Source: a virus. From it: a stretch of 24,481 nt of DNA. The translations under genes and the position numbers were made by a program. Within the stretch, counting starts at the first letter, position 1. Every line of letters begins with the position of its first letter. The notes under the pieces are model-generated. The model was not told where the DNA came from, ran no database searches, and was given only the letters and a program-made list of their open reading frames with translations. Where the stretch lies: IMG/VR virus record IMGVR_UViG_3300020478_000062, positions 1 through 24,481 of that record, one strand, 5' to 3'. Of the stretch, positions 9,365 to 24,481 are shown one piece after another.

Positions 9365-9636
9365 ATAGTAAGTTGAATGTTGGTAATATTGAAGGGTTAT
9401 CACCTAACTTTACTGTCAAACTAAAGGCAGAGGCAGATATGGTATTCAAGGGTGATAGTCAGTTACTTATGAACCAAACATCACACTTAGCATTACCTGC
9501 TGGTAGTGACGCACAGTTTGATACTTCTAATCAATCTTATGCACCTAGACGAGGTTATATAAACGGACAGTTGCGTTTTAATACAAGTAATGGTAAACTA
9601 CAGATTTACAATGATGGTCGGTGGACCAGTGGATAA
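9361..9636 (+). CDS. very short fibre module protein without a tip domain
   Basis: 91 aa, starting MNSKLNVGNIEGLSPNFTVK. The N-terminal LNVGNIEG tag resembles the starts of the other fibre proteins here (LTVAHLAG, IKVNNLTA, LNVDKIVS). Residues 45-89 are a version of the shared module: LALPAGSDAQF...NGQLRFNTSNGKLQIYNDGRWTS. The protein stops straight after the module, where the larger fibres continue into adhesin domains. It may be a complete small connector or a fibre that has lost its tip. It is ATGA-coupled to the preceding gene, and a 2OG-Fe(II) oxygenase follows two bases after its stop. Confidence 0.6.
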   Translation: MNSKLNVGNIEGLSPNFTVKLKAEADMVFKGDSQLLMNQTSHLALPAGSDAQFDTSNQSYAPRRGYINGQLRFNTSNGKLQIYNDGRWTSG

Positions 9637-9638
9637 CT

Positions 9639-10262
9639 ATGGGTTTTACAAAAGATGGACAGGATCCTAGGATCCTAGATGTGACACATCATGATAATTT
9701 TATCTCTGAATATAAAACTAATCTTCGAGGAGATAATTTAATTGAGTATTACAATTTTATAAGAGGACAAGGTAAGGCATTCGATAGAACTGCTGGTCAG
9801 AACGGTGCTGTTACTGACCAGCAGATTTTTGTACATGAGTTACCACCTGACTATTGGCATGATAATCTATCAAGGTCAGTCTATAGAGCATGGAACTTCT
9901 TAACAGAAGATGCTTTAAATGATTATGGTAAGAAATATGATGTGTTGGTTGGAAGAAAATTCCAGCATACGATGTGCAAACTACAAAGAACTGAACCTGG
10001 ACAAGGGTTTCATAACTGGCATTATGAATGCACACCATCAACACCTTATAGACTTCTAACTACTCAGTTATACATCAATGATGACTATGAAGGTGGTGAA
10101 ACTGAATTTCTATATCAACACGTAAGAATTAAACCTGAAGAAGGAAAATTCACTATATGTCCTACAGCATGGACACATGCACACAGAGGTAATCCACCTT
10201 TAAATGGGACAAAATATATTGCTACTGCATGGGTTGAAGAGTTTCCTTTCTTTGGACAATAA
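9639..10262 (+). CDS. 2-oxoglutarate/Fe(II)-dependent oxygenase (prolyl-4-hydroxylase-like)
   Basis: 207 aa, cytosolic. ATG 9639 follows the preceding stop by two bases; the frame is also open to GTG 9621, which would overlap. The double-stranded beta-helix core is visible: FHNWHYECT with H128-x-E130 as the proximal metal pair, LTTQLYINDDYEGGETEFLY (140-159), IKPEEGKFTICP (164-175), THAHRGNPPLNGTKYIATAW with the distal His at 180 or 182 and K192 as the likely 2OG carboxylate ligand. Such enzymes couple 2OG decarboxylation to hydroxylation, classically of prolyl or other side chains. It sits between fibre genes, so a fibre protein or a host surface component is a plausible substrate; this is not shown. 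HxE instead of HxD is a less common but known variant. Confidence 0.85.
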   Translation: MGFTKDGQDPRILDVTHHDNFISEYKTNLRGDNLIEYYNFIRGQGKAFDRTAGQNGAVTDQQIFVHELPPDYWHDNLSRSVYRAWNFLTEDALNDYGKKYDVLVGRKFQHTMCKLQRTEPGQGFHNWHYECTPSTPYRLLTTQLYINDDYEGGETEFLYQHVRIKPEEGKFTICPTAWTHAHRGNPPLNGTKYIATAWVEEFPFFGQ

Positions 10263-10283: not shown

Positions 10284-11315
10284 ATGAGCACGCTAACAGT
10301 TGCACATTTAGCAGGTACTGCTGCTACAATCAGTCAGACAAACATACCAGCAGGTCATACTTTAGACATCGAAGGTAATGTTTATCATGATGGGACTGGA
10401 GCGTTGCGTTTGCCTACAGGGACAACTGCTCAGAGACCAGGCAGTCCACAAGCAGGTTATATACGTTGGAATACAGATACATCAGCAGTAGAAGTATATA
10501 CAGGTAGTACTTGGAAAATGTACTCTGCTGAGAATGGTAGTAGTGGATCACCATTTACATCATTATCAAATGTAACTACTGCTAATCCTACTCCTGGATT
10601 CTATTACGTTAACTTTGATGGTGGTGGAAATGAAGAGATGTATCTCTTCAAAGATAGTAATAACAAGTGGTGGGCAGGTGTAGCATCTATTACAGATACT
10701 ACTAATCATGGTCAATATACTGGTGGTAGTGATAGTTGGTATGGTAACTGGTCTAATACAAGTACATTTGGAACAGGCACAGGATTTATGGGTCAAGACT
10801 TTAAGTCAAGACATTACCATAACTGGACAGTTAATGATGTATTGATAATGCAGGGATGGTCAACATCTGGTGATCCTTATTCATTATCAACTGAAGTTGC
10901 ATATATTAATGGAGTTTTCACCAATAGAGGTGGAAACATGAAAGAGATGTTTGAAGACCATATTGGATTAGGTAACCACGGAAATATTGGTGGTACACAG
11001 ATAGGTGGTATGACTTTCTTAAAAGGAAGTGCAAACAACTCAGATAATAGATATAGAGGTAGTAGTGCTGGTGAATTGAATCCCAACAACACTTGGCACG
11101 TTTCTCCTGCAAACTGCGAAAACTATACTATGAGTATGATTAATGCTCTAGGTTGTGCATCTAATGGATGTAACGTTGAGCACCATTGTTGGGTTGGTAA
11201 CACTGGTAATAACTATTCAAACCAAAACTTCCCAGAACCTAACTGGTCTGGTAGTTGGGGTATTAATAACCCTGGCAGTCAAAACTGGATGTATTGGTTA
11301 TTCTTCTACGCATAA
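10284..11315 (+). CDS. tail fibre protein with fibrinogen/lectin-like tip
   Basis: 343 aa, starting MSTLTVAHLAGTAATISQTN. Residues 42-78 are the shared module: RLPTGTTAQRPGSPQAGYIR, then WNTDTSAVEVYTGSTWK. The C-terminal ~240 residues form a Trp-, Asn-, Gly-rich tip with four Cys near the end (PANCENY, LGCASNGC, HHCW). GFYYVNFDGGGNEEMYLFKD (105-124), with KWWAGVASI and DFKSRHYHNWTVNDVLIM (172-189), recalls fibrinogen-like/intelectin-like domains, where DFKSxAYxxLxVxDVLxM is a typical run. Those bind glycans, so this is probably a receptor-binding tip. A short ATGGCATGA precedes the start; the second ATG is used because only it opens the long frame. Confidence 0.7.
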   Translation: MSTLTVAHLAGTAATISQTNIPAGHTLDIEGNVYHDGTGALRLPTGTTAQRPGSPQAGYIRWNTDTSAVEVYTGSTWKMYSAENGSSGSPFTSLSNVTTANPTPGFYYVNFDGGGNEEMYLFKDSNNKWWAGVASITDTTNHGQYTGGSDSWYGNWSNTSTFGTGTGFMGQDFKSRHYHNWTVNDVLIMQGWSTSGDPYSLSTEVAYINGVFTNRGGNMKEMFEDHIGLGNHGNIGGTQIGGMTFLKGSANNSDNRYRGSSAGELNPNNTWHVSPANCENYTMSMINALGCASNGCNVEHHCWVGNTGNNYSNQNFPEPNWSGSWGINNPGSQNWMYWLFFYA

Positions 11316-11317
11316 CG

Positions 11318-12427
11318 ATGAGCACTATTAAAGTCAACAATCTAACCGCACCAGCAGATAACAATTTTGCTATCGAGATGGAGACTGGTGAGAATATGCG
11401 AGTAGCAGGTGGAATGACTAATAATTATTGGACTCAATTCTCTATACCATCTGGCACTACATCAGAGAGACCATCTGCACCTGTTGCAGGTATGCTTAGG
11501 TTCAATACTCAAACACAATACTTAGAGGTATATACAGGTAATGCTTGGTCTGGACTATTCATGGCACAATCTGGTGGTATGGATGGATCATCAGAAGCAT
11601 CAGCACCTAACTCAGTTCAAGGATTATTTGACGCAGGTGTATCAACAGACGGAAATTATTATTTGAATCTTGATGGTACTGCAAGGAAATATTTTGTACC
11701 ATTACAGAGTCATCCATATTATATTGTTATGGCAAACTATGGTGGTGGAGCAAACGCATGGTTCTCCAATGCTTCAGCATTAAGTGGTAATCAAATAAAT
11801 GATGTAGGAGACTCAACTCCTACGGGTAACTTTGCAAACAACGGGACATACGGATATTATAGAAATACTGGTGGATCTGATTATAAGTATGCGACAGTTA
11901 GTAGAAGGGGAATATCTTATCGTTATGTAAAAATGAGGTTTAACCTTTACACATATTATTCAAATGATGGTGTAAATGGTAGAAACTTCTTAGGTATATC
12001 ATCAGGTGTTGGTGATGGTATGACTGTTATGCGTAACAACTCTGCTGAGGGTGACGCACAACATATATTCACATATTATACTGCCATAAGTAATAATGAT
12101 GGTAACAGTTGTCCTTCGCAAGCAGGGATGACACCAACCATGCAAGCGGGTGGTAATAACCCTGGTGGATTTATGAGTAACCGATATAACTGCTTCTCTA
12201 GGAGTGGTAATGGTTTCACAAGTGAATACGTTAGAAACTTCTCCACTCTCCCAGGAGATAATAGTGGAGGCACTGGACCAAATGTATTAACAGGAGACTC
12301 TTGGTACACTGTTGATATGGGTTCAGACAAATCTCACGACATGCACATTGTTATTCATTCTGACCAAGACAGTGGAAATGAAGATACATACATCAAACGT
12401 GGTGTAGTGCTTGTCCGACCTGCATAA
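11318..12427 (+). CDS. tail fibre protein with a second, different lectin-like tip
   Basis: 369 aa, starting MSTIKVNNLTAPADNNFAIE. ATG 11318 follows the preceding stop by two bases; in-frame upstream codons exist but would overlap. Residues 42-77 are the shared module (FSIPSGTTSERPSAPVAGML, then RFNTQTQYLEVYTGNAW). The tip begins near 110 with DGNYYLNLDGTARKYFVPLQ and YYIVMANYGGG, echoing the GFYYVNFDG start of the preceding fibre's tip, and ends KRGVVLVRPA after HSDQDSGNEDTYI. This pattern resembles fibrinogen-like domains more loosely than its neighbour. Beyond the module and that opening the two tips look unrelated, so they likely recognise different receptors. This is inferred. Confidence 0.7.
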   Translation: MSTIKVNNLTAPADNNFAIEMETGENMRVAGGMTNNYWTQFSIPSGTTSERPSAPVAGMLRFNTQTQYLEVYTGNAWSGLFMAQSGGMDGSSEASAPNSVQGLFDAGVSTDGNYYLNLDGTARKYFVPLQSHPYYIVMANYGGGANAWFSNASALSGNQINDVGDSTPTGNFANNGTYGYYRNTGGSDYKYATVSRRGISYRYVKMRFNLYTYYSNDGVNGRNFLGISSGVGDGMTVMRNNSAEGDAQHIFTYYTAISNNDGNSCPSQAGMTPTMQAGGNNPGGFMSNRYNCFSRSGNGFTSEYVRNFSTLPGDNSGGTGPNVLTGDSWYTVDMGSDKSHDMHIVIHSDQDSGNEDTYIKRGVVLVRPA

Positions 12428-12452: not shown

Positions 12453-13841
12453 ATGTCACAGTTAAACGTTGATAAAATTGTATCCCTAGCAGGAGGTGGA
12501 GGTACCGCTCAGTTCCAGTTGGAATCATCAGGCAACTTTAACTTTGACTCAGGTACTTTTTATGTTGATGCCACCAATAATAGGGTAGGTATTAATGATG
12601 CTTCTCCAGAGTATTCATTAGATATCGAAGCAACTGACGCAGTTAAGATGCCAGTCGGCACAACTGCTCAAAGACCTGGTTCCGCAGTAGAGGGATTATT
12701 CAGATATAATAGTACCGATAGAACCTTTGAAGGTTATTCATATAACCAAGATACAGGTGCTACTGAGTGGGGACCAATTGCTGGTGCAGCAGGTGGAGCA
12801 GCATTACCTGATCAATCCACTGACAGATATAGTGTAAATTATTCTGTTAAAGCACAATTAATGTCCGATGGTACTAACGCTTATTGGTCACATGAAAACG
12901 GTGCAAGTTCATGGGCACAAGCAAGAATCTGGACACATGGATATACAGGTGGAGGATATAGAGGAGGTAGTCCTTGGAAGAATATTAACAGGACTGTTCA
13001 CTCTAACGACACAACAACAAACTTAGGTGATAAACTCGATAGATCTGGGGCATATATGTCAGGGTCATGGAGTGACATCAAGCATTGGTTCCATTCAATG
13101 GAAAACACATACAGAGGTTCATCTAACTATACCTCTGGTTTTAATATGGCAACTGAAAACGGTATAGCACACCTTAACCAGTGGGATATGACCGTTAATA
13201 GAGGGTCAATGGGATCCTGTCAAGACCATGTATTTGCAGGAGGTAATTCATTCTTGCATTGTGGTGGTAACTCAAGGACTGACGTTTTCAACTTGAAGAC
13301 TGAAACCATGAGAACCTCTGGTTTCCCTAATGATTACCCTGATGGTGGTGATGACCCTACATGGGGTGGTCATGGAAGAACTCATGGGTGGATTAAAAGG
13401 TCGGGTACCCGAAGAGGATTTGAGTGGAAGACCGAATCTTATACCATGTGGAATCATGGACCTGGTGGTGATGGATGGAAGAAAATTCTTCCAACTATGC
13501 TAGGACACATGTATGTTGGTACTGGAAACAACAACCAAAATGGTAACCAAAAGTGTGATGACCGTACTGGTATTCAGGTACATGGTCTTAACTTTGGTAA
13601 CATGGGTGAAGAAAATTTCCAAATGGGTATGAGAAAAGGTTATTGTTTAGGTAACTATAACGGTAACCAGAATAACCAGACATTCAAAGTTAACTATATG
13701 AATGATGGTCATAACTATATGGGTAACACAACTGAACCCAAAGGACATTCTGGTATGTCCTCAGCACACTGTGCCTCTGCAAGTTCTGTAACTTCAGGTG
13801 CAGCATCTTATGACTACGGCACAAACATTCCTAATTACTAA
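12453..13841 (+). CDS. tail fibre protein with Kelch-like tip (cassette A, gene 1)
   Basis: 462 aa, starting MSQLNVDKIVSLAGGGGTAQ. Residues 44-58 are the fibre motif RVGINDASPEYSLDI, and 65-106 are the shared module (MPVGTTAQRPGSAVEGLFRY...). From about 160 onward a Gly/Asn/Trp-rich tip shows repeated blades ending in YxxGG-like turns: WTHGYTGGGY, NRGSMGSCQDH...GGNSRTDVFNL, LGHMYVGTGNN, GYCLGNYNGNQNN. This is suggestive of a Kelch-type beta-propeller, a fold used for glycan or protein binding. The tip is clearly homologous to the separate protein at 18493-19494 (THGY, NRTVHxNDTxTNLGD, GEENFQMG, PKGHxGMSSA). Its stop overlaps the next ATG (TAATG). Confidence 0.75.
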   Translation: MSQLNVDKIVSLAGGGGTAQFQLESSGNFNFDSGTFYVDATNNRVGINDASPEYSLDIEATDAVKMPVGTTAQRPGSAVEGLFRYNSTDRTFEGYSYNQDTGATEWGPIAGAAGGAALPDQSTDRYSVNYSVKAQLMSDGTNAYWSHENGASSWAQARIWTHGYTGGGYRGGSPWKNINRTVHSNDTTTNLGDKLDRSGAYMSGSWSDIKHWFHSMENTYRGSSNYTSGFNMATENGIAHLNQWDMTVNRGSMGSCQDHVFAGGNSFLHCGGNSRTDVFNLKTETMRTSGFPNDYPDGGDDPTWGGHGRTHGWIKRSGTRRGFEWKTESYTMWNHGPGGDGWKKILPTMLGHMYVGTGNNNQNGNQKCDDRTGIQVHGLNFGNMGEENFQMGMRKGYCLGNYNGNQNNQTFKVNYMNDGHNYMGNTTEPKGHSGMSSAHCASASSVTSGAASYDYGTNIPNY

Positions 13842-14596
13842 TGGCAGACACTAGAGACGTTATCGTATTTGATCTTGAAAGGTATCCTATACTGAATACC
13901 TGGGGGACTCGTTTGGATTCAGTTATGGATCTATATTGGGGACACATAGACAACGATAGGTGGGATCATATACCACAGAATATTGCTTACTTAAGATTAT
14001 CTGCTGCTGATGCCATTACAGCACAGACATATTGGGGTGAAGTAAGAACAGAGAAGTCAGTTTATGGTACAGATGAGAATGGATTATATACTGACAAGCA
14101 TAAGGAAACTATAACTCAAGCACAATTTGATAAGACTGAAGAAGTAATGAAAGCAGTCATTACTCTTAGAGTCCAAGAGATTTTTGAAAAGAGATATACT
14201 GCATTGAGAAAGAATTATGGTGAATTAGAACATGCTACCTGGAAGGATCAGTATGAGGAATCAACTGCATATATCGCAGATAACTCTACAACAGTTAAAT
14301 TAATTGATAGACTTGCTACTATTAGAGGGTTGACAACCGCTAGTTTTGCTGCTAAAGTTGTTGATAAATATAATGCGTGGCAAACCGATTTCTTTAATCT
14401 TGCCGTGAAAGAACAGGAATTAGTCCAAGAGATTAAATCTTGCTCTGACATCAAATCAATCAATGTCTTCCTAGAAGATAAGTTTGGTATTGAGATGTCT
14501 TTACAACAAGCACTTGAATATAGTAGAGCAACACAAGATGGTTCAACAAACGTCATTACAAGAAACTCCGAAGTCAACTGGGGGTTACAATTCTGA
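13841..14596 (+). CDS. tail-fibre-assembly-like / fibre-associated protein (cassette A, gene 2)
   Basis: 251 aa, starting MADTRDVIVFDLERYPILNT. Predicted mostly helical. Residues ~118-195 (YTALRKNY, ATWKDQYEES, LIDRLATIRGLTTASFAAKV, VDKYNAW) match the TWxxQxxEAxxY...LxxLAxxRGxxxxxLAxKIxxK pattern that I know from phage tail-fibre assembly and related tail proteins. The last ~50 residues (199-236, SCSDIKSINVFLEDKFGIEM) resemble the C-terminus of the 191-aa protein in the second cassette. It starts at a TAATG overlap with the adhesin, as fibre chaperones typically do. A role in folding, attaching or capping the adjacent fibre is inferred. Confidence 0.6.
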   Translation: MADTRDVIVFDLERYPILNTWGTRLDSVMDLYWGHIDNDRWDHIPQNIAYLRLSAADAITAQTYWGEVRTEKSVYGTDENGLYTDKHKETITQAQFDKTEEVMKAVITLRVQEIFEKRYTALRKNYGELEHATWKDQYEESTAYIADNSTTVKLIDRLATIRGLTTASFAAKVVDKYNAWQTDFFNLAVKEQELVQEIKSCSDIKSINVFLEDKFGIEMSLQQALEYSRATQDGSTNVITRNSEVNWGLQF

Positions 14597-15464
14597 TAAT
14601 TATGATGTAAACGAAGTCTGTAAGGCGTTAGATGAAATTTCGCCTTGGGAAAATTGTGACGAGTTTACGAAAGAATTAATGGAGTGGGCAGACCACCAAT
14701 ACTTTGAGCAGTCTGAATTTCAGAATAAGCATTTCGTAATTAATTCACATGTAACTCCTTATCGCCAAATGCAACAGGCAGCGATGGAGGTACAAGTAAG
14801 ATATAATTCACTACAGAAGATAACAATATCATATAAGAGATGCCTCAATGATATTGCTAGAGTAACACATGAAATGGAGCAAGAAGATGATCCATTTTAC
14901 AAGCAAGATAAGGTTTATGAATTACAGTTATTGCAAGTAGATAAGACTGTATGGGTTAATAAGATTAATCAATCTAAGAAAGAGATTGAAAGTTTTGTCA
15001 AAATTATTAAAGAGAAATTCCAAGACCCCAGTGATATTAAGGGATTATTGGAAGATAAAGAATTAAAAGAGAGAGAAGAGCAGAAGTATTGGATTGCTAG
15101 GATGGCAAGACAGTCTGCTACTGATCTCATGACTACTGGTAGAATTCAAGCAGGTAACATTGAAGCATTACTTCAAATGAATCCTGAAGATCAAGCAGCA
15201 GTTGTAGACCTTGCTTTGACATATTCTACTGCTGTGAATAGGTCTATCGGTGGAATTAAGACAGCAGCAGAGGATAGAGTTGATAAGATGATGGAAGGTA
15301 AACCACCTCAACTATTTGATACCAATGGAGTTTTAACTGATTATGCAACCCAAAACATCGCAGACAGATTGCTTCAGTCTGCCGATCAACCCGAAGGCGG
15401 ATCCTCAATTTCAGGACGAATTACTGATTCCATTTCTAAACCAGCATCGTCACCTAATAACTGA
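14538..15464 (+). CDS. coiled-coil protein of unknown function (cassette A, gene 3)
   Basis: 308 aa, starting MVQQTSLQETPKSTGGYNSD. Residues ~65-185 are long charged helices likely to form a coiled coil. Residues 183-218 (KYWIARMARQSATDL, GRIQAGNIEALLQM, NPEDQ) are by far the most conserved part when compared with the partner at 20011-20748. The C-terminus (250-308) is low-complexity and Ser/Pro-rich. ATG 14538 overlaps the preceding gene by 59 bases; the upstream in-frame ATG 14484 would overlap far more. In the second cassette the homologous gene has its ATG at the exactly equivalent overlapping position, which supports this start. No enzyme motif is seen; a scaffold or adaptor role is a guess. 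Confidence 0.7.
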   Translation: MVQQTSLQETPKSTGGYNSDNYDVNEVCKALDEISPWENCDEFTKELMEWADHQYFEQSEFQNKHFVINSHVTPYRQMQQAAMEVQVRYNSLQKITISYKRCLNDIARVTHEMEQEDDPFYKQDKVYELQLLQVDKTVWVNKINQSKKEIESFVKIIKEKFQDPSDIKGLLEDKELKEREEQKYWIARMARQSATDLMTTGRIQAGNIEALLQMNPEDQAAVVDLALTYSTAVNRSIGGIKTAAEDRVDKMMEGKPPQLFDTNGVLTDYATQNIADRLLQSADQPEGGSSISGRITDSISKPASSPNN

Positions 15465-17133
15465 TTTATATTTTACTTGTAGAATGCCACCCTTTATGCA
15501 GGATGCAATGGGTGACACATTTCGCACGGAGAAAGATGCTAAGAGGGTTGCAGGTAACGCATTTTATGTAAGAGAGAAGACAGGCATACCATTGTCTGCT
15601 ACGTTTAATAATATATGGGTACGACCTGATGAAAAGAATTTAGATATATGGATTGAAAACTTTAAACCATTGTATGATATTGGTATCAATATAGTTACCT
15701 TACCTCATACATCATGGGTTGCTACAGGTAGAATACAGAGAGCATTTCCAGACATTTATATAAAGAATACAATTCTCAGGGAGGTAACTAAACCCAATGA
15801 GATTGTATCCTTAGCATCTATGGGTTTCAATTATATTAATCTTGATAGAGATATAATGAGAGACCAAGAAGCATTGGTACGTATTAAACAAGCAAAGGAA
15901 TATTGTGCAAATAAAGGTAATCCTATCAAGTTATCATTGCTAGTCAATGAACACTGTTGGGGTGGTTGTCCTATCATGCCAGAGCATTATCAATATAATA
16001 GTACAAGAGAAGGAACTCAACCTCAATATTTTAATAGTGAAATCAGTAGAATATCATGCTCACGTTGGGATGCTTATGACCCTGCATTTGAATTAAAGCA
16101 AGCAAACTTACCACCTTGGAGAGAGGACTGGGAGGAGTTGCTAGATGTTATTGATGTGTTCAAATTACATGGTAGAGAGAACTTCATGCGAATGAAGGAA
16201 TCAATGGACATCATTAAAAGATGGAATGATGGTGACAGTATATTATATCCAGAGTATGTTAAATATATGGAGGATATTGATATAAAAGATTCTCCTATCA
16301 ATATCTGGAGACAGAAGATCAAGACATGCAAGTTTGATTGTTGGGATTGCAACTATTGCGAGTCTGTGGTAGAATCACATTTACGGAGGCAGAATAGAAA
16401 AATGGATCCATTTGTAGATAAGGCAATTCGTGCTATTGATGCTGCTGTAGATAACAAATCTAATTTTAACCCTGAAGGTTATGATGTCATTGGGTTATCA
16501 TCAAACAAGGTAAGACATTTACTCAATAATCTATGTGATGCTGGCACAGTATATGCTGATGTTGGTTGTTATATGGGTAGCACATTATTTGCTGCATTAA
16601 TGGGTAATCAGGCAGTTAAAGCATATGCTATTGATGATTTTGGTGAAGGTGAGATAAGACCAAGACGAGAAGACTTAAGAAGTAAGTATGAAGTTGAGGA
16701 TCCATTTAAACAATTCATTGAGAATGGTAAGAAATGGTTTAATCAGTATTGTTCTATTGGTGTTAGTGATAGGAGTCTGTTAGATGTAGAGTTTAACTTA
16801 GATTATAGACCATCAGTTATATTCTATGATGCAGACAATAAGAAGAAACCTATGCTTGCTAACTTAGAGCATTTACATAAGGCAGCAGAGCACACATATA
16901 TCTTAGTAGTTGATGATGCTAACTTTGATGGTGTTGTTGATACCACTAAAGAGTTTTGTAAGGATAAAGAAGTAAGATTTGAGAGGATAATATTAACAGA
17001 AACTATAGAAGATGAGAATGATTGGTGGAATGGTCTTTATATTCTCGTAATACATAAACCTGAACTATTTGTACCTAAAGGATCTAATGAAGTTACCATT
17101 AAAGATAGAAAAGGAATTTCTTCCAAGAAGTGA
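15343..17133 (+). CDS. U32-like Cys-rich TIM-barrel fused to SAM-dependent methyltransferase (cassette A, gene 4)
   Basis: 596 aa. Residues ~10-340 contain FSLPINP, DLYFTCRMPPFMQDAMGD, PLSATFNN, TLPHTSWV, FNYINLDRDIMRD, LLVNEHCWGGCPIMPEHY (199-216) and DVFKLHGRE. This order resembles the peptidase-U32/UbiU-V family, whose members bind a 4Fe-4S cluster and hydroxylate RNA or quinones without O2. Seven cysteines are candidate Fe-S ligands: C205, C209, C239, then C329-x3-C333-x2-C336-x2-C339. Residues ~380-572 are a class I methyltransferase of the Methyltransf_24 type: YADVGCYMGST (404-414), AIDDF, FYDAD (494-498), LVVDDAN (521-527), WWNG. The start overlaps the preceding gene by 122 bases, with no alternative ATG before residue 48. 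U32 membership is by eye; radical-SAM-like origin is an alternative. Substrate unknown. Confidence 0.65.
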   Translation: MQPKTSQTDCFSLPINPKADPQFQDELLIPFLNQHRHLITDLYFTCRMPPFMQDAMGDTFRTEKDAKRVAGNAFYVREKTGIPLSATFNNIWVRPDEKNLDIWIENFKPLYDIGINIVTLPHTSWVATGRIQRAFPDIYIKNTILREVTKPNEIVSLASMGFNYINLDRDIMRDQEALVRIKQAKEYCANKGNPIKLSLLVNEHCWGGCPIMPEHYQYNSTREGTQPQYFNSEISRISCSRWDAYDPAFELKQANLPPWREDWEELLDVIDVFKLHGRENFMRMKESMDIIKRWNDGDSILYPEYVKYMEDIDIKDSPINIWRQKIKTCKFDCWDCNYCESVVESHLRRQNRKMDPFVDKAIRAIDAAVDNKSNFNPEGYDVIGLSSNKVRHLLNNLCDAGTVYADVGCYMGSTLFAALMGNQAVKAYAIDDFGEGEIRPRREDLRSKYEVEDPFKQFIENGKKWFNQYCSIGVSDRSLLDVEFNLDYRPSVIFYDADNKKKPMLANLEHLHKAAEHTYILVVDDANFDGVVDTTKEFCKDKEVRFERIILTETIEDENDWWNGLYILVIHKPELFVPKGSNEVTIKDRKGISSKK

Positions 17134-17593
17134 ATTCGACCTAATGGTCGCAAAGATGGTAGATACTATCCCTTGGTGGATGGGTAAGATCCATTATGAT
17201 ACACCAGAGAATATTCATCGTAACATGCAGATGGTGCATTATTTTTATGAGCACCATACACCCAATAAACAGACGGTAGAGTTAATCTATCCAATATTAC
17301 AGAAACTACAACCTTGTGCTATAATCAAAATCAAAGCAAACCTAGTCATGGCAACAGATACCATTGTTGAGCATGGACTACATAGGGATGTGGAGGATGC
17401 AGAGCATCTATCAGACTTAAAGACTTCCATCTTATACTTAAATGATAATGATGGTTATACTATGTTTGAAGATGGTACTAAAGTGCAGTCAGTTGCTAAT
17501 ACTATGGTTACATTTCCCAATGATATTAGACACACTGGTTCTACATGCACCAACTCAAATTGTCGTTTAGTATTAAACTTTAACTATGTTTAA
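17087..17593 (+). CDS. 2-oxoglutarate/Fe(II)-dependent oxygenase-like protein (cassette A, gene 5)
   Basis: 168 aa, starting MKLPLKIEKEFLPRSEFDLM. ATG 17087 is chosen because AAAGGA lies just upstream; an in-frame TTG at 17069 is weaker. It overlaps the methyltransferase gene by 47 bases. The oxygenase signature is EHGLHRDVED with H99-x-D101, then LKTSILYLNDNDGYTMFEDG, then FPNDIRHTGS with H149 and a 2OG-ligand candidate R160 in NCRLVLNFNYV. Spacing between HxD and distal His (48-50) fits the family. It would hydroxylate a side chain or small substrate using 2OG and O2. Orthologous in order and motif to the gene at 22450-23007. Confidence 0.75.
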   Translation: MKLPLKIEKEFLPRSEFDLMVAKMVDTIPWWMGKIHYDTPENIHRNMQMVHYFYEHHTPNKQTVELIYPILQKLQPCAIIKIKANLVMATDTIVEHGLHRDVEDAEHLSDLKTSILYLNDNDGYTMFEDGTKVQSVANTMVTFPNDIRHTGSTCTNSNCRLVLNFNYV

Positions 17594-17939
17594 GAAACTT
17601 TTGAAGAGATATCTTACTCTAATTGGTAAGATTGATGAGAGACATTATTGGTTTTTGTTTATATTTTTGTCACTATACTTTGTTGTACCATATAGTGAAT
17701 ATATAGTTACTGCATTAATACTTTTATACTTCAAGTTTGAGCAAGCATTTCGTAGATTTAGTGGTAAGATAACAAGAGTATTACCTGAATGGTTAAGAGT
17801 AGGTGGATCTGTTATATTTTTCCTAGTAATGTTGGATGATACATTGATGTATCTCTCTGTTATTGCAATAGCATATTATAGTAATAAGAAAGCAAAAGAG
17901 TTACAAGCAGAAGACCATATAAATACAGAAGAGAAGTAA
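17586..17939 (+). CDS. small multi-span membrane protein, function unknown
   Basis: 117 aa, starting MFKKLLKRYLTLIGKIDERH. Hydrophobic segments at about 21-34 and 38-50 and a longer one at 74-98 suggest two or three membrane spans; the N-terminus and the 50-62 loop are strongly basic. The start overlaps the oxygenase stop by 8 bases, so it is co-translated with cassette A. It has no counterpart in cassette B. A holin or other envelope-active role is possible on size and topology, but nothing specific supports it. A late promoter box lies inside its last codons. Confidence 0.65.
   Translation: MFKKLLKRYLTLIGKIDERHYWFLFIFLSLYFVVPYSEYIVTALILLYFKFEQAFRRFSGKITRVLPEWLRVGGSVIFFLVMLDDTLMYLSVIAIAYYSNKKAKELQAEDHINTEEK
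17918..17925 (+). promoter_or_regulatory. T4-type late promoter box TATAAATA
   Basis: Exact TATAAATA inside the 3' end of the membrane-protein gene, 25 bases before ATG 17951. It would drive the second fibre cassette independently of the first. Confidence 0.65.
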
Positions 17940-17950
17940 TAAGTAAATTC

Positions 17951-18487
17951 ATGTCAACTTTAAGTGTAGGAACAGCATCAGTATCCACCTCACTCGTTGC
18001 TGCGACTAATACATACCCTACAACACAAGGGACTAATGGACAGGTCTTGACTACCCTTGGTAATGGTACCTTACAGTGGGCAGACCAGTCAGCAGCAGGT
18101 GGTGGAGTTGAGGGATTCACCAATTCAGGCACAGCATTGAATGGTGGTATCGACCTTAATTTAAAAACCTCAACAATATATCATTATACCGCTAACTCTG
18201 CTGGTACATGGCAACCAAACTTTAGAGGGGATGGTAGTACTACATTAAACAATTATATTTCTACAAATGAAACTATTACTGTTGTAATGTGGGTACCATG
18301 TAATAACTCTGGACGTTATCCTACGCAACATAAAGTTGATGGTAGTGTTATAACTCCTAAGTGGATTGGTGGATTTGGTGCACCAACTGGAGGACATGAT
18401 GGTAAAATTGATTTCTATACTTATACTATTCTTAAGACAGGCAATGGTGCTTTCAGCATATATGCTAATCAAAACTTCTACGATTAA
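17951..18487 (+). CDS. short tail fibre protein (cassette B, gene 1a)
   Basis: 178 aa, starting MSTLSVGTASVSTSLVAATN. It has the common fibre N-terminal tag and the motif TQGTNGQVLTTLGNGTLQWA (25-44), widespread in phage fibre proteins. A compact beta domain follows (ITVVMWVPCNNSGRYPTQHK, then GKIDFYTYTILKTGNGAFSI, near 109-170) and it ends QNFYD. It lacks the PxGTTAQRP module. The end looks natural, with no sign of an interrupted frame. It lies five bases before the Kelch-like protein gene, whereas in cassette A shaft and tip are one polypeptide. It may be the shaft/attachment partner of that tip. Confidence 0.7.
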   Translation: MSTLSVGTASVSTSLVAATNTYPTTQGTNGQVLTTLGNGTLQWADQSAAGGGVEGFTNSGTALNGGIDLNLKTSTIYHYTANSAGTWQPNFRGDGSTTLNNYISTNETITVVMWVPCNNSGRYPTQHKVDGSVITPKWIGGFGAPTGGHDGKIDFYTYTILKTGNGAFSIYANQNFYD

Positions 18488-18492
18488 AGATT

Positions 18493-19494
18493 ATGCCAGG
18501 TACAGTTAATTCGTCAGCAGGAAATGGTGCAGCAGACTGGACTCCAGGACGTGCGAGGTATGACGGTTGGAATAAAAACCAGACTCGTGCACCTTGGGAA
18601 AGGTCTCGTATCATCACGCATGGATATGTTGCTGGTGGATATAAAAATGCTAATCCTTGGTATAATGTTAATCGCACAGTTCATAACAATGACACCTCAA
18701 CAAACTTAGGTGACATAATGAACTATGCAGCATCATATGTTGATGGTGGTAATAGTGATAGAGCATTTTATATTTACGGTGGAGATAATAGTTTCTCAGG
18801 TACAACGTCAAGAGTTTGGAAGATGAATTTAAGTAATGCTTCTTCTCAAGGCATGACAAACTCAATGAACGTTAGCAGGAATGATATGTCCTGTATGACA
18901 GACTATCATCATCAAGGTGCAAAGATATACATTACTGGTGGAGGTAATAGTACTACTGACCGCACCAATATGCAGAATGATACTAATAATACTGTACAAG
19001 GTAGTGGACAAGGTGGAGACTATAGTGCAGGAGCACAAGGTAGATTAAGAGGATGGTCTAAGACAGGAGGCACAGCACAATATCTTACATGGGCAAATGA
19101 AACTTGGTCATCATGGGGTGGATCTCCTGGTACAAATGGATGGGGTAAAGCATGTAGTAGTTATCTTTCATACATGTATTGGAAGAATGGAGGTAACTGT
19201 ACAACAGATATTAGAAGAGTTAATGATTTCACTGGAGCAAACATGAACGCATTCAATGTGCAAAACTCTGGTGAAGAGAATTTTCAAATGGGTAACTATA
19301 AAGGTTATTGTCTAGGACACTATAATGGTTCACAGAATAATAACTCATACAAATGGAATTATCTAACAGACTCGTATGCTGACGGAGGTGGTAACATGCA
19401 ACCTAAAGGACATGATGGCATGTCCAGTGCTGGCAACGCATCTGCCTATACATTTAACAACTACGGATACGGAATTTCACCACCTTCTTATTAA
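18493..19494 (+). CDS. Kelch-like adhesin as a separate polypeptide (cassette B, gene 1b)
   Basis: 333 aa, starting MPGTVNSSAGNGAADWTPGR. It lacks any fibre N-terminal tag. From residue 42 it aligns with the tip of the 462-aa fibre: THGYVAGGY, NRTVHNNDTSTNLGD, then blades YIYGGDNSFSGTTSRVWKMN and YITGGGNSTTDRTNM, and SGEENFQMGNYKGYCLGHYN (259-278) plus PKGHDGMSSA (304-313). Gly, Asn, Ser and aromatic residues dominate. A propeller-like receptor-binding tip is inferred. A separate Gly-rich tip next to a fibre is reminiscent of the gp37/gp38 arrangement of T-even phages, by analogy only. Starts five bases after the short fibre's stop, in another frame. Confidence 0.7.
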   Translation: MPGTVNSSAGNGAADWTPGRARYDGWNKNQTRAPWERSRIITHGYVAGGYKNANPWYNVNRTVHNNDTSTNLGDIMNYAASYVDGGNSDRAFYIYGGDNSFSGTTSRVWKMNLSNASSQGMTNSMNVSRNDMSCMTDYHHQGAKIYITGGGNSTTDRTNMQNDTNNTVQGSGQGGDYSAGAQGRLRGWSKTGGTAQYLTWANETWSSWGGSPGTNGWGKACSSYLSYMYWKNGGNCTTDIRRVNDFTGANMNAFNVQNSGEENFQMGNYKGYCLGHYNGSQNNNSYKWNYLTDSYADGGGNMQPKGHDGMSSAGNASAYTFNNYGYGISPPSY

Positions 19495-19496
19495 TT

Positions 19497-20072
19497 ATGG
19501 ATGAATCAATCGCAAAATATTTTATCGCAGACATTGATGACCTGCCAATGGCAGTAAGGTCTGATGGTAATGTTAAGTTCAATCATAGCACCATTAAATA
19601 CTCAGTTGTAGGTGTGACTCAAGAGATATGGGATGCACATTTAAAAGATGCTGGATATACTGAAGTGACTGCTGATGAAGCAATCATAGGGTCACAGCAT
19701 TGGGGAAAAGTTGGAGCAAAGATTAGTGACTATCAAGTAGAAGTTGGTACTGGATTAATATTAAAGACTAAAGTTGATATTGTTGAATCAAATCGTGCTT
19801 ATGGTGTTACATTAATGAAGGCAGTAGCAAAGGAACTTGTTAAGTATGCTATTTCAGAGAAGGGTAATTCTGATGCTACATATAATACTGCTCTATTGAC
19901 ATCTATTGATAATTGCACTACAATGGCAAGTATCAATAGTATTTGGGAAGACTACCTAGGTGGTCAGTTACCTAAAGAGCAAGCACAATCTGAAAATTTA
20001 TATGAAAGCGATGGAGTCACCAGAAAATACAAATCAGGAAGAGTTAAACCCGACTTTATTCCAGGACTTTGA
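19497..20072 (+). CDS. fibre-associated protein (cassette B, gene 2)
   Basis: 191 aa, starting MDESIAKYFIADIDDLPMAV. It starts two bases after the adhesin stop. The N-terminal ~90 residues (FNHSTIKYSVVGVTQEIWDA, ADEAIIGSQHWGKVG) do not obviously match the 251-aa protein of cassette A, and the RGLTT-type assembly motif is absent. The C-terminal segment 138-176 (IDNCTTMASINSIWEDYLGG, then EQAQSENLYESDG) does resemble residues 199-236 of that protein. Position and shared C-terminus suggest the same job, perhaps fibre folding or attachment, with an exchanged N-terminal part fitted to its own adhesin. Function is otherwise not recognised. Confidence 0.6.
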   Translation: MDESIAKYFIADIDDLPMAVRSDGNVKFNHSTIKYSVVGVTQEIWDAHLKDAGYTEVTADEAIIGSQHWGKVGAKISDYQVEVGTGLILKTKVDIVESNRAYGVTLMKAVAKELVKYAISEKGNSDATYNTALLTSIDNCTTMASINSIWEDYLGGQLPKEQAQSENLYESDGVTRKYKSGRVKPDFIPGL

Positions 20073-20748
20073 TGAGTTTGACCACTATCTAATTGATAGA
20101 GCAAATACACATCCATTCCCTCAAACGAGGTATCAATGTAATCATTTTGTAACTGATTCTCATCCTACTGAATATCGTGCAATTAGACAGACTCTACTAG
20201 AGTTAGCAACACGAAAGCACAGTAATAAGAAGATTCAAGTTAACATGAAGAAGGCATATATTGAGATAGCAAGGAAGCAGAAACAAATAGAAGAGACGAC
20301 TGACCCCTTTGATGCTCAAATGTTAGAGGTTGAGATAGAAGACCTAGAACTAGATATTGAACAATATGAGAAGAAGATACTGCAATGTAATCTTGAGTTA
20401 AGATATTATCTTGATTCAATTAAAGAGAAGTGTTCAACACCAGAAGAGACTGATAAGTATTTTGCTGATGATGAAGAGGAAGAAAGAAAGTATTGGATAG
20501 CAAGGATGGCAAAGCAATCTGCTACTGATATGATAGGATATGGTACAATATCTGCTGGTCAGATTGATAGTTTATTGATGATGCCTAAAGAAGATCAAGA
20601 AGCATCATTAAATCTTTCAATGAGATATGCAGGTGCTATTAATAAAGGTATCAATGAGATGAGACTACAGGCAGAAGCAGATGTAAAATACTTTGACAAT
20701 ACTACTAACGTGACTAAGATGTTACAAGATGGTGCAGACAAAGTTTAG
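20011..20748 (+). CDS. coiled-coil protein of unknown function (cassette B, gene 3)
   Basis: 245 aa, starting MESPENTNQEELNPTLFQDF. Homologue of the 308-aa protein of cassette A: the CNHFVTDSHPTEYR region (43-56), a long charged coiled coil (about 70-160), and the highly conserved block at 160-196 (KYWIARMAKQSATDM, GTISAGQIDSLLMM, PKEDQ). It is shorter because it lacks the Ser/Pro-rich tail. ATG 20011 overlaps the preceding gene by 62 bases, and the ATG sits at the codon pair for Asp-Gly exactly as in cassette A; in-frame ATGs at 20002 and 19960 are alternatives. Unknown function; conservation of the C-terminal block suggests a binding interface. Confidence 0.7.
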   Translation: MESPENTNQEELNPTLFQDFDEFDHYLIDRANTHPFPQTRYQCNHFVTDSHPTEYRAIRQTLLELATRKHSNKKIQVNMKKAYIEIARKQKQIEETTDPFDAQMLEVEIEDLELDIEQYEKKILQCNLELRYYLDSIKEKCSTPEETDKYFADDEEEERKYWIARMAKQSATDMIGYGTISAGQIDSLLMMPKEDQEASLNLSMRYAGAINKGINEMRLQAEADVKYFDNTTNVTKMLQDGADKV

Positions 20749-20764
20749 GTCTTTCTATTCTCGC

Positions 20765-22453
20765 ATGTGGCAAAAGATATTTTCTCTACCTATTAATCCT
20801 AAGTTAGATCCTAACTTCATTAAGGGTGAGTTTCTTGAGTTCTTAATGAGAAATAGAGATTGGATTTATGATCTCTATTTTACATGTAGGATGCCACCAT
20901 TCACTCAGGATGCAATGGGTGATGTATTCTTTACTCAGGACATGGAGTTCCAAGTAATAGAAATGGCAATGTGGTTATCTGAAATCACAGGGATTCCACT
21001 ATCTGCAACATTCAATAACATATATGTGAGACCAGACCAGAAAGGTTTGGATATGTTTATCACAAACTTTAAGCAATTATATGATGCTGGTGTTAAGATA
21101 GTAACTCTACCTCATACTTCATGGGTATTAACTGGACAGATACAGAAAGAATATCCTGAATTATACATTAAGAACACTATACTTAGAGAAGTAACAAGAC
21201 CTAATGAGATAGTTCAATTAGCAAGAGCAGGATTTCATTATATTAATCTCGATAGAGATTTAATGAGAGATAGAGATAGACTGATAGAAATAAAGGAAGC
21301 AAAAGAATACTGTGCAGAGCAAGGATATCCTGTTAAGTTATCAATATTAGTTAACGAAGGTTGTTGGGGTAATTGTCCTATAATGCCTGAACATTATCAC
21401 TATAATAATACTAGAAATGGTGATGATCCTCAATATTTTAATGATACAATTAGCAGAGTTAGTTGTAGTAAATGGGATGCAGTAGAGGGAGGACTGGCAG
21501 CACTCAAGGCAGCAAATCTACCACCTTGGAAGAGTGATTGGGAAGAGTTTTTAGAGTTAGGTATAGATGTCTTTAAACTACATGGTAGAGAGTCAGCAAC
21601 TAGACTTAAAGAGTCTATGGATATTATTAATAGATGGGTATTAGATAAGAAACTATTGTTCCCTACATTCCAAGAATATATTGAAGACGTTGATATTAAA
21701 GAAAGACCTATTGATGTATGGAGAGATAAGATTAAGACATGTCAGTTCAACTGTTGGAAGTGTAACTACTGTGACCTAGTTTATAAAAATGGTAAAAATA
21801 ATAAAGTTAATTTTAAAATCAATGAAATAATAAAGGCAATAGACAAAGCAGAGTTAGGTGAAAGCAATTATACTGGAGTGTGCATTGAGTCATTAACTTC
21901 AGAAACTACTAAACATTTTCTCAATAATATATGTGCTATTGAAGGAACAAAGTATCTTGAGTTAGGTGTGTATGGTGGTGGTACATTCTATTCAGCATTA
22001 CAAAATAACAATGTTAAAGGTTATGCTGTTGATGATTTTAAAAAGAGATACCTATCACCAGAGAGAGATGACATAGAGTTTACACCATTTACTAATCCAA
22101 AGACTGCATTTTTAACACCACCATGGTACCCAGATAAGAGATATGACTTTGAACTCATTGAAGGTAATATTTCTGAGGTAGAAATACCAGAGCAATGTAA
22201 TGTTATATTCTATGATGCAGACCATGACCCAGTTGAACAATATAAGAATCTACAACACATTTGGCAATACTGTGATGATGAGTTTATATTATTAGTTGAT
22301 GATGCAAATATGCCTGGAGTTATTGATAGTGTTGATGATGTAATTAGAAGTAATAATCCTACAGTATTATTTGAGAGAAAGATATTAACATCTATTCCTG
22401 AAGATTTAAACTCTTGGTGGAATGGTATCTATATTTTATTGATACAAAAATGA
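20765..22453 (+). CDS. U32-like Cys-rich TIM-barrel fused to SAM-dependent methyltransferase (cassette B, gene 4)
   Basis: 562 aa, starting MWQKIFSLPINPKLDPNFIK. ATG 20765 puts FSLPINP six residues from the start; in-frame ATG 20729 would add 12 residues and overlap the preceding gene by 20 bases, so either is possible. Domain order matches cassette A: DLYFTCRMPPFTQDAMGD, TLPHTSWV, FHYINLDRDLMRD, LVNEGCWGNCPIMPEHY, DVFKLHGRE, then CQFNCWKCNYC. All seven candidate Fe-S cysteines are kept (C200, C204, C234, C326, C330, C333, C336). The methyltransferase part has YLELGVYGGGT (397-407), AVDDF, FYDADHDP (482-489), LLVDDAN (509-515) and WWNG. Keeping every Cys while other residues diverge argues that both copies are active proteins. 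Biochemical reaction and substrate are unknown. Confidence 0.65.
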   Translation: MWQKIFSLPINPKLDPNFIKGEFLEFLMRNRDWIYDLYFTCRMPPFTQDAMGDVFFTQDMEFQVIEMAMWLSEITGIPLSATFNNIYVRPDQKGLDMFITNFKQLYDAGVKIVTLPHTSWVLTGQIQKEYPELYIKNTILREVTRPNEIVQLARAGFHYINLDRDLMRDRDRLIEIKEAKEYCAEQGYPVKLSILVNEGCWGNCPIMPEHYHYNNTRNGDDPQYFNDTISRVSCSKWDAVEGGLAALKAANLPPWKSDWEEFLELGIDVFKLHGRESATRLKESMDIINRWVLDKKLLFPTFQEYIEDVDIKERPIDVWRDKIKTCQFNCWKCNYCDLVYKNGKNNKVNFKINEIIKAIDKAELGESNYTGVCIESLTSETTKHFLNNICAIEGTKYLELGVYGGGTFYSALQNNNVKGYAVDDFKKRYLSPERDDIEFTPFTNPKTAFLTPPWYPDKRYDFELIEGNISEVEIPEQCNVIFYDADHDPVEQYKNLQHIWQYCDDEFILLVDDANMPGVIDSVDDVIRSNNPTVLFERKILTSIPEDLNSWWNGIYILLIQK

Positions 22454-23007
22454 AACATCTAAAAGGATTTAATTTCCCTGCTGATAACTTTAGACATGGT
22501 ATAGATGAACCTTATGTCTTTGATAATTTCTTAGAAGATAAGAAGTTTCTTCCTATATTTGATGCAATGAAAGCACCAGCATTTCCTTGGAGGATGACAA
22601 AGATATTAGATGATACTGAAGATAATTATCTTACTAACATCCAAATGGCACATATGTTCTATGACCATTATTCACCAGAGGATGAAAGTATAAATTTATT
22701 GTTTCCAATATTAGAGGCAATAGATCCTATATCAATTCTTAAGATTAAGGCAAATGTTTTAACTAAGACTGATACTATAGTTGAACATGGACTACATAAT
22801 GATATAGAGAATAGATTGGATTGTCCATTCATTAAAACAGCAATACTGTATATGAATACATGTGACGGTTATACTAAATTCTCTAATGATGACAAAGTTA
22901 ATAGCGTCCAAAATAGATTCGTGGTTTTCCCAAACTCATTGCAGCATACGGGTAGTACCACTACCAATTCGCCTTTTAGGATGGTTATTAACATCAACTA
23001 CATATAA
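22450..23007 (+). CDS. 2-oxoglutarate/Fe(II)-dependent oxygenase-like protein (cassette B, gene 5)
   Basis: 185 aa, starting MKHLKGFNFPADNFRHGIDE. ATG 22450 overlaps the methyltransferase stop in an ATGA junction; the frame is open further upstream but no better start is seen. Core: LKIKANVLTKTDTIVEHGLH then NDIEN, giving H116-x-D118; ILYMNTCDGYTKF; FPNSLQHTGSTTTNSPFR with H166 and R177; end NINYI. It matches the 168-aa enzyme of cassette A through most of its length, with a somewhat longer N-terminus. Expected chemistry is 2OG- and O2-dependent hydroxylation. Last gene before the transcriptional break at 23008-23087. Confidence 0.75.
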   Translation: MKHLKGFNFPADNFRHGIDEPYVFDNFLEDKKFLPIFDAMKAPAFPWRMTKILDDTEDNYLTNIQMAHMFYDHYSPEDESINLLFPILEAIDPISILKIKANVLTKTDTIVEHGLHNDIENRLDCPFIKTAILYMNTCDGYTKFSNDDKVNSVQNRFVVFPNSLQHTGSTTTNSPFRMVININYI

Positions 23008-23897: not shown

Positions 23898-24100
23898 ACC
23901 CTACTCACACAATCGATTTACCTGCTTGTTTGTATCTTCAAGATGAAGAAAAACAAGTGCTAAAAGATGCTTTGCTCTGTTATATTAAAGAGTTAGAAAT
24001 AAAAGCAAAAAAAGATAAAATTCTATCTGTTGAGGCATACCAAGAGGTCATGGGTATGTTAACTAAAATCATCAAAAAAACAGGGTTATCTCATGATTGA
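23894..24100 (+). CDS. small helical protein, function unknown
   Basis: 68 aa, starting MNPTHTIDLPACLYLQDEEK. Predicted helical with a basic second half (LEIKAKKDKILSVEAYQEVM). AAGGAG lies directly against the ATG, too close for ideal use, so translation probably relies on coupling with the preceding gene through the ATGA overlap. Its TGA overlaps the next gene by 8 bases. Function unknown. Confidence 0.65.
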   Translation: MNPTHTIDLPACLYLQDEEKQVLKDALLCYIKELEIKAKKDKILSVEAYQEVMGMLTKIIKKTGLSHD

Positions 24101-24481
24101 AGTATTTTCTCCTAAGTGGTATTATATTAATAAATTGGAGGAGGAAAAACAGAATAAAGTTACTGAATTGTTTACAGATTTCATTGATGATGATTCAAAC
24201 TTTAAACAACCACCTGCATGGAATTGTAATATTCAATGTTCTTATCAACATGAGAATAATTCCAAAGCACCTTGGGATGCTTGGTTAGAAATTGTTAGAC
24301 CACAGTTTGATAATTTCATCGAAGAAGTTGGTTGTCTTCAAGATATAGAAATACTACCTCAAGAAGCATGGGTTAATAAGTATTTGCCTGGTGATTCACA
24401 AGAGTATCATAATCATTGCACACCTAATACTAATATTAGTATGGTATATTTTCATACTGTCAATGAGGATGATAATTGTAA
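24093..24481 (+). CDS. 2OG-Fe(II) oxygenase-like protein (partial, cut by window end)
   Basis: 129 codons are visible, starting MIEVFSPKWYYINKLEEEKQ, with no stop before the edge. The segment AWVNKYLPGDSQEYHNHCTP (92-111), then NTNISMVYFHT, resembles the start of the double-stranded beta-helix in phage putative 2OG oxygenases (WxNxYxxGxxQxxHxH...SxVYYL), with H106 and H108 as candidate metal ligands. The distal His and Arg would lie beyond the window, so the call is tentative. ATG 24093 overlaps the preceding gene by 8 bases. This frame, not the overlapping one from 24097, gives the coherent protein. Confidence 0.55.
   Translation, partial: MIEVFSPKWYYINKLEEEKQNKVTELFTDFIDDDSNFKQPPAWNCNIQCSYQHENNSKAPWDAWLEIVRPQFDNFIEEVGCLQDIEILPQEAWVNKYLPGDSQEYHNHCTPNTNISMVYFHTVNEDDNC

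Follow-up and report, generated by a model that had tools for sequence, protein, structure and literature searches.

Why should a phage carry, twice over and in the same order, the genes for a putative adhesin and for proteins that resemble modifying enzymes? The question is raised by IMG/VR virus record IMGVR_UViG_3300020478_000062, an environmental record of 24.5 kb whose sequence (24,481 nucleotides, hereafter the window) derives from the fibre region of a cyanophage of the T4-like group. The locus consists of five gene families, designated here A (Kelch-like adhesin), B (candidate fibre assembly or adaptor protein), C (coiled-coil protein), D (U32-like protein fused to a methyltransferase) and E (2-oxoglutarate-Fe(II) oxygenase, 2OG oxygenase), laid out as A1-B1-C1-D1-E1 (12453-17593), X1, and then Z2-A2-B2-C2-D2-E2 (17951-23007); upstream of the cassettes lie counterparts of T4-GC 344-347, which are virion structural and fibre genes in Syn19 and P-SSM4. 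The obligate and conserved unit is A-B-C-D, with E as a frequent but loose companion, and we give roughly even weight, for and against, to the proposal that each copy is a host-recognition cassette in which D modifies its own adhesin and B and C act as helpers. The genes of the two copies are as follows.

12453..13841, plus strand: A1, adhesin with a fibre-type N-terminus (about 1-120) and a Kelch-like propeller (about 150-450); phrog_1417, 5e-207; AlphaFold2 model.
13841..14596, plus strand: B1, fast-evolving protein of unrecognised fold, candidate fibre assembly or adaptor protein; phrog_1604, 1.6e-82.
14538..15464, plus strand: C1, coiled-coil protein with its ATG in the +1 frame within B1; phrog_1409, 8.7e-102.
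15343..17133, plus strand: D1, U32-like TIM barrel (about 11-345) fused to a class I methyltransferase (about 375-572), as predicted from phrog_1458 (4.5e-278), alignment, AlphaFold2 model and U32 bridge.
17087..17593, plus strand: E1, 2OG-Fe(II) oxygenase with HxD...H...R intact; PF13640, 2.3e-5 (below cut-off); invariant ligands.
17586..17939, plus strand: X1, small membrane-type protein; phrog_1248, 4e-49.
17951..18487, plus strand: Z2, short fibre-type protein and first gene of the type-2 cassette; phrog_5906, 1.4e-21; precedes A2 in type-2 contigs.
18493..19494, plus strand: A2, Kelch-like adhesin without the fibre N-terminus; phrog_1417 positions 136-444, 3.2e-81; alignment.
19497..20072, plus strand: B2, with its middle shortened relative to B1; phrog_1604, 1.6e-14.
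20002..20748, plus strand: C2, coiled-coil protein whose start (ATG 20002 or 20011) lies out of frame within B2; phrog_1409, 6e-62.
20729..22453, plus strand: D2, second putative U32-like/methyltransferase fusion, with the seven Cys all present; phrog_1458, 2.6e-215; ratio of nonsynonymous to synonymous substitution (dN/dS) about 0.1.
22450..23007, plus strand: E2, second 2OG-Fe(II) oxygenase, triad intact; phrog_274, 1.1e-48; PF13640, 0.0039 (below cut-off).

The two copies correspond gene by gene. Paired genes match the same PHROG families (A 1417, B 1604, C 1409, D 1458, E 274, with E-values from 1e-14 to 1e-278) and share 38-40% amino-acid identity for A, 23% for B, 37% for C, 52-53% for D and 50% for E, which bears out the claim of a preliminary description of the window that five families occur twice in the same order. 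The nucleotide identity of paired genes is only 43-60% in codon alignments, so the copies are not a recent repeat, as that description had also held. Its account of copy 2 as a five-gene cassette is right about the families, all of which are present, but the adhesin is split into Z2 and the Kelch-only A2, giving six open reading frames, and X1 intervenes between the copies. Z2 resembles the C-terminal part of phrog_5906, and the A1 N-terminus its N-terminal part. As to the overlapping start of C, reported to be kept at the same codon pair, the overlap itself is general, the ATG of C lying in the +1 frame inside B in 99 of 101 B-C pairs, usually 50-70 bp before the B stop, but the Asp-Gly codon pair is not, most relatives having other codons there, and its conservation as a general feature was rejected.

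The composition of the unit is defined by co-occurrence and linkage. A survey of 50,697 phage records yields 123 with the Kelch domain of A, as many with C and as many with D, 117 with B and 249 with E; the three sets of 123, compared by number and name breakdown, are identical in their composition by organism name (77 Synechococcus, 38 Cyanophage and 8 Prochlorococcus), and D is single-copy in all 123. For scale, 434 or more of the records that bear the name Synechococcus phage or Cyanophage have the baseplate gene gp6, so that only a minority of these phages has the cassette. In a set of 106 distinct loci plus the window, counting only loci with room for the neighbour in question, D has C beside it in all 103 of 103, A and B each in 80 of 81, and E in 70 of 93, the other 23 lacking E at that position; because the loci were fetched via D, these counts state how likely A, B and C are once D is present, and the phage counts state the converse. 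The linkage that had been proposed for the whole five-gene set thus stands for A-B-C-D, whose families do co-occur in the same order; membership of E in the obligate unit was rejected, given its 249 records and 70 of 93 loci. Two loci were binned as Dehalococcoidia and Euryarchaeota (L113 and L114, respectively); the former, with fibre genes and the whole cassette, looks like a phage contig wrongly binned into a metagenome-assembled genome (MAG), and the latter, which is short, may be another.

The four linked genes also share a history. Pairwise distances correlate at 0.88-0.97 among A-D, against 0.67-0.76 with the nearby fibre-region gene g347, and those of E correlate less than A-D do with one another (15 loci in both cases). 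In the gene trees, which are quick-search trees with long branches and Shimodaira-Hasegawa-like approximate likelihood ratio test (SH-aLRT) supports, A-D are congruent, and the sequences related to copy 2 (type 2) form one clade in each of the A-D trees. The genes of copy 1 belong to type 1, the common cassette of isolated cyanophages. Both copies are under purifying selection, with dN/dS of 0.05-0.24 for the genes compared in either copy, and both D genes are intact in all eight contigs that span the two types.

The AlphaFold model of A, built from shallow alignments of 26 sequences, has a beta-rich region at 200-440, and when the model is compared with the PDB all 50 of the 50 best matches are Kelch propellers (best E 3.1e-9; target template-modelling scores of about 0.6-0.7); as modelled, A folds as a Kelch propeller. 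The Pfam Kelch models are not reached by A, Kelch_6 appearing at E 0.094 for A2 only. No useful relative emerged when PDB sequences were searched with profiles of A, B, C, D, E and the methyltransferase part of D, B and C in particular having none of known structure; searches of Pfam, PHROGs and the PDB likewise gave B and C no resemblance to known chaperones. Upstream of A1, at 10284-12427 of the window, are two further fibre-type proteins, F and G, which have in common an N-terminal domain (29% identity) that is also present in the A1 N-terminus; it is likely to be a shared attachment module carrying different tips.

D is modelled, likewise from shallow alignments, as an eight-stranded barrel (11-274, alternating strands and helices) and a C-terminal alpha/beta domain. 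Foldseek with the whole model returned no U32 entry in the top 50, the matches being pyruvate kinase and MTHFR barrels and methyltransferases; because the structural search does not single out U32, this assignment rests on sequence bridges. The barrel part has bacterial relatives, of which an intermediate (L123) matches PF01136 at 23.7 bits (cut-off 22.4). In profile comparisons, D matches the bacterial intermediates at 100% (P 2.9e-60), these match U32 proteins of the UbiU/UbiV/RlhA/TrhP type at 97.6% (P 2.8e-12), and D matches U32 directly at 77% (P 2e-5), with a score of 47, whereas 30 column shuffles gave 26 at most. Seven cysteines (205, 209, 239, 329, 333, 336 and 339) are invariant in all aligned members, in the pattern CX3CX29CX89CX3CX2CX2C, that is, NE-x-C-x3-C-P and a downstream CX3CX2CX2C. 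Judged from sequence, the N-terminal part of D is a divergent branch of the U32 superfamily, and it lies outside the U32 family proper by both the Pfam cut-off and the cysteine pattern. For the C-terminal part, PF13578 (Methyltransf_24) is matched at 30.9 bits in one relative (L027; cut-off 26.3) and by 17 of the 36 D members at E up to 0.1, D2 of the window reaching only 20.3 bits and D1 giving no match; the glycine-rich motif I, YxDxGxYxGST, is conserved, and these features support its assignment as a class I S-adenosylmethionine methyltransferase.

Relatives of D occur outside the cassettes as well. Viral contigs (L185-L202) hold further members with 62-64% identity in the U32 part, mostly without E beside D. 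In a Desulfocapsa MAG (L115, 1-4352), a stand-alone relative of the U32 part (43%) lies between an RTX-repeat protein and a C39-type ABC transporter of a type I secretion system (T1SS), an independent hint that this U32 branch serves surface or secreted proteins. More distant relatives in Desulfobacterota adjoin molybdenum hydroxylase genes (L127, L129) or stand directly beside a canonical U32 gene (L142, L145), and possibly represent an unnamed U32 branch.

E retains H97, D99, H147 and R158 (alignment numbering) in all 24 sequences, corresponding to the HxD...H triad and the distal Arg, and E1 scores 25.7 bits against PF13640, just under the cut-off of 27. PHROG 274 and many cyanophage records give its relatives the name 'DNA endonuclease V (denV)'; this label is contradicted because E keeps all iron and 2OG ligands, and it looks like a propagated misannotation. 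The domain calls of the preliminary description are therefore upheld, for Kelch by the model, for the U32-like part by the bridge, for the methyltransferase by PF13578 in relatives and for the oxygenase by HxD...H...R. Two more 2OG-Fe(II) oxygenase genes, at 9621-10262 (phrog_61) and 24093-24479 (phrog_81) of the window, flank the fibre genes on both sides.

Taken together, the proposal is that each copy would be a host-recognition cassette of a T4-like cyanophage, in which A would form the tip of the tail fibre and contact the host surface through its Kelch propeller, while B and C would serve A specifically, in assembly or as adaptors. D would join two enzymatic steps in one chain, hydroxylation by a U32-type [Fe-S] part and then O-methylation, and would carry them out ahead of assembly on its own A protein or on the complex of A, B and C; where E is present, it would contribute a further 2OG-dependent hydroxylation. 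The unit would be inherited as A-B-C-D, and the two types side by side would yield two differently modified tips, with a probably broader or switchable host range. The adhesin is the likeliest substrate because the Kelch adhesin, with B and C, is the obligate genomic partner of D. Cognate specificity is suggested because two intact D genes are kept where two adhesin sets occur; if one D served both adhesins, the second would be expected to decay, and both are kept. The fuller form of the proposal, in which an O2-independent U32 hydroxylase/O-methyltransferase, optionally with the O2-dependent 2OG hydroxylase, tailors the Kelch tip in cognate pairs, so that two tips keep two enzyme sets, is put forward as a tentative model and somewhat less confidently than the general one.

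Several observations weigh against this proposal. The Kelch part of A is modelled with a predicted local distance difference test score (pLDDT) mostly of 65-80, which is only moderate confidence, and the loops around the cysteines of D fall below a pLDDT of 50. PF01136 is unmatched by D1, D2 and 36 relatives, the usual four-cysteine [4Fe-4S] motif of U32 proteins, CX6CX15CX3/4C, is not found in D (CX3C instead of CX6C), and E162, the essential Glu of TrhP, has no counterpart in D at the corresponding spacing ahead of the Cys. B and C have no recognised function, E is often absent from the cassette, and S-ShM2 has its D gene about 6 kb away from C and about 7.7 kb away from A.

Another substrate for D and E would be a small molecule, or the host receptor or surface polysaccharide, for example a ligand of the Kelch domain or a change in the infected-cell surface that blocks superinfection. 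U32 and Methyltransf_24-type enzymes act mostly on small molecules or nucleic acids, UbiU-UbiV hydroxylate quinone precursors, and the distant bacterial relatives of the U32 part stand beside molybdenum hydroxylases or an AMP-ligase, all in favour of this explanation. It is nonetheless considered unlikely, as the strict one-to-one pairing of D with a type of Kelch adhesin and its helpers fits a protein substrate better, and two D genes are retained where there are two A genes.

A further explanation, rather improbable on present counts, is that A-C are an ordinary adhesin with chaperones and that D and E are cargo swapped by recombination, without any action on A. The fibre region is a hot-spot for cargo, E is clearly loose, many 2OG oxygenases flank the fibre genes of these phages, and in S-ShM2 petE, gnd and other cargo separate D from A-C. 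Against this, D was not seen without the Kelch domain of A and C, nor these without D, in the counts (123 isolates, 103 loci), and S-ShM2 keeps D despite the broken linkage.

A different matter is how the two copies came to lie side by side. All eight contigs that span both copies have them next to each other and in one orientation, in agreement with a tandem duplication within this phage lineage followed by divergence, and adjacency is the part of the earlier notion of tandem, diverged copies that stands. However, all five gene trees place copy 2 together with cassettes from other phages (contigs L008-L024; SH-aLRT of 100 for A, 99 for B, 98 for C, 100 for D and 94 for E), which have type 2 only and different upstream genes, X1 then following in at least some (for example L009, L018-L020). 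The cassettes are therefore ancient types, and not the product of a recent tandem duplication, which is rejected by the gene trees. At least seven further contigs, drawn from different metagenomes, have both types in this order, and their identity to the window ranges from 98-100% down to about 40%; since the pair recurs at such different divergence, it is not an assembly error, and a chimera was likewise rejected. In Syn19 and P-SSM4, the position of the type-2 cassette is occupied by gene 356 (T4-GC 356), an unrelated glycine-rich adhesin gene whose product in Syn19 has an ALK/LTK glycine-rich domain, and the position looks like an adhesin exchange site; X1, which is usually 3' of E in relatives, has the same position in Syn19, P-SSM4 and P-RSM1. 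It is simplest to suppose that two cassette types of ancient divergence were joined at this site and have been kept since. By the same evidence, duplication within the lineage has a small probability; on the sequences at hand, the trees refute a recent event though not a very old one. The preliminary interpretation is thus supported in part, in its domain calls and linkage, and not in the membership of E or in the tandem copies as stated; its suggestion that the enzymes decorate the adhesin is an inference, and action on the receptor is a less likely alternative.

That D modifies RNA (a tRNA wobble uridine, or rRNA) as TrhP and a TrmR-like enzyme in one chain, with no relation to the adhesin, is very improbable: the best-characterised U32 proteins, RlhA and TrhP, do hydroxylate RNA, TrmR methylates the product, and TrhP is the best match of the bridging profile among U32 proteins (1.1e-6), but the linkage to A, B and C and the two diverged copies in one genome argue against it, no RNA-binding domain is seen in D, and the methyltransferase part finds no TrmR-like sequence in the PDB.

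Part of this system is already visible in public cyanophage records, where the gene families and their order appear as hypothetical T4-GC 351-354 plus '100'. The literature searched gave no description of the cassette as an adhesin-modifying system, of phage U32 enzymes, of cyanophage Kelch tips or of the paired arrangement. Mutations in an 'adhesin block' have been reported for S-PM2d (PMC9910659); S-PM2 is not among the D matches listed, and that block was not matched to the cassette. Little is understood of how the most abundant ocean phages recognise their receptors, and if D does modify the tip, a chemical mark would join sequence in setting host range, and D would be, to judge from the present searches, the first known case of a U32 enzyme with a protein substrate; if the modification were proved, there would be a substantial chance of something new. 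The proposal is directly testable, as 123 sequenced isolates already carry the cassette genes, and even with another target for D the analysis corrects the 'endonuclease V' label, gives a predicted fold to the 'sericin 1 precursor-like' protein and defines the A-B-C-D unit.

Among known systems, the fibre tips of the T4 gp37/gp38 and S16 gp38 types consist of a distal adhesin with dedicated chaperones and are exchanged as a unit; the cassette differs in its predicted Kelch propeller tip and putative modifying enzymes. HlyC-HlyA and the autotransporter heptosyltransferases provide examples of an enzyme gene beside that of the surface protein it modifies, the modification being acylation or glycosylation, whereas hydroxylation and methylation are predicted for the cassette; the Desulfocapsa locus shares the RTX-enzyme-T1SS layout with systems of the HlyC-HlyA type. 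The closest counterpart is the T4-GC 351-352-353-354-100 run of Syn19, P-SSM4 and others (PHROGs 1417, 1604, 1409, 1458 and 274), which is the type-1 cassette and to which copy 1 of the window belongs (66-75% identity for A and D); in the isolates it is present as a single copy in all 123, in contrast to the two types of the window, and it is annotated only as 'sericin 1 precursor-like', hypothetical and 'endonuclease V'. For the chemistry, U32 proteins hydroxylate aromatic or pyrimidine rings without O2, using prephenate (RlhA, TrhP; PMC6599085) or [4Fe-4S] (UbiU-UbiV; PMC6747719). In Bacillus subtilis, TrhP1/TrhP2 hydroxylate and TrmR then O-methylates tRNA (ho5U34 to mo5U34; PMC6599085), a succession of U32 hydroxylase and O-methyltransferase similar to that proposed for D, to whose U32 part these proteins are remotely related; TrhP with TrmR, and RlhA, are however separate proteins that act on RNA, with the canonical CX6C and the essential Glu, whereas D is a fusion linked to an adhesin. 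UbiU-UbiV have in common with D the U32 superfamily, conserved cysteines and an expected [4Fe-4S] cluster (PMC6747719), and differ from it as a heterodimer acting on quinone precursors, with CX6CX16CX38C in UbiU in place of the longer seven-cysteine pattern of D.

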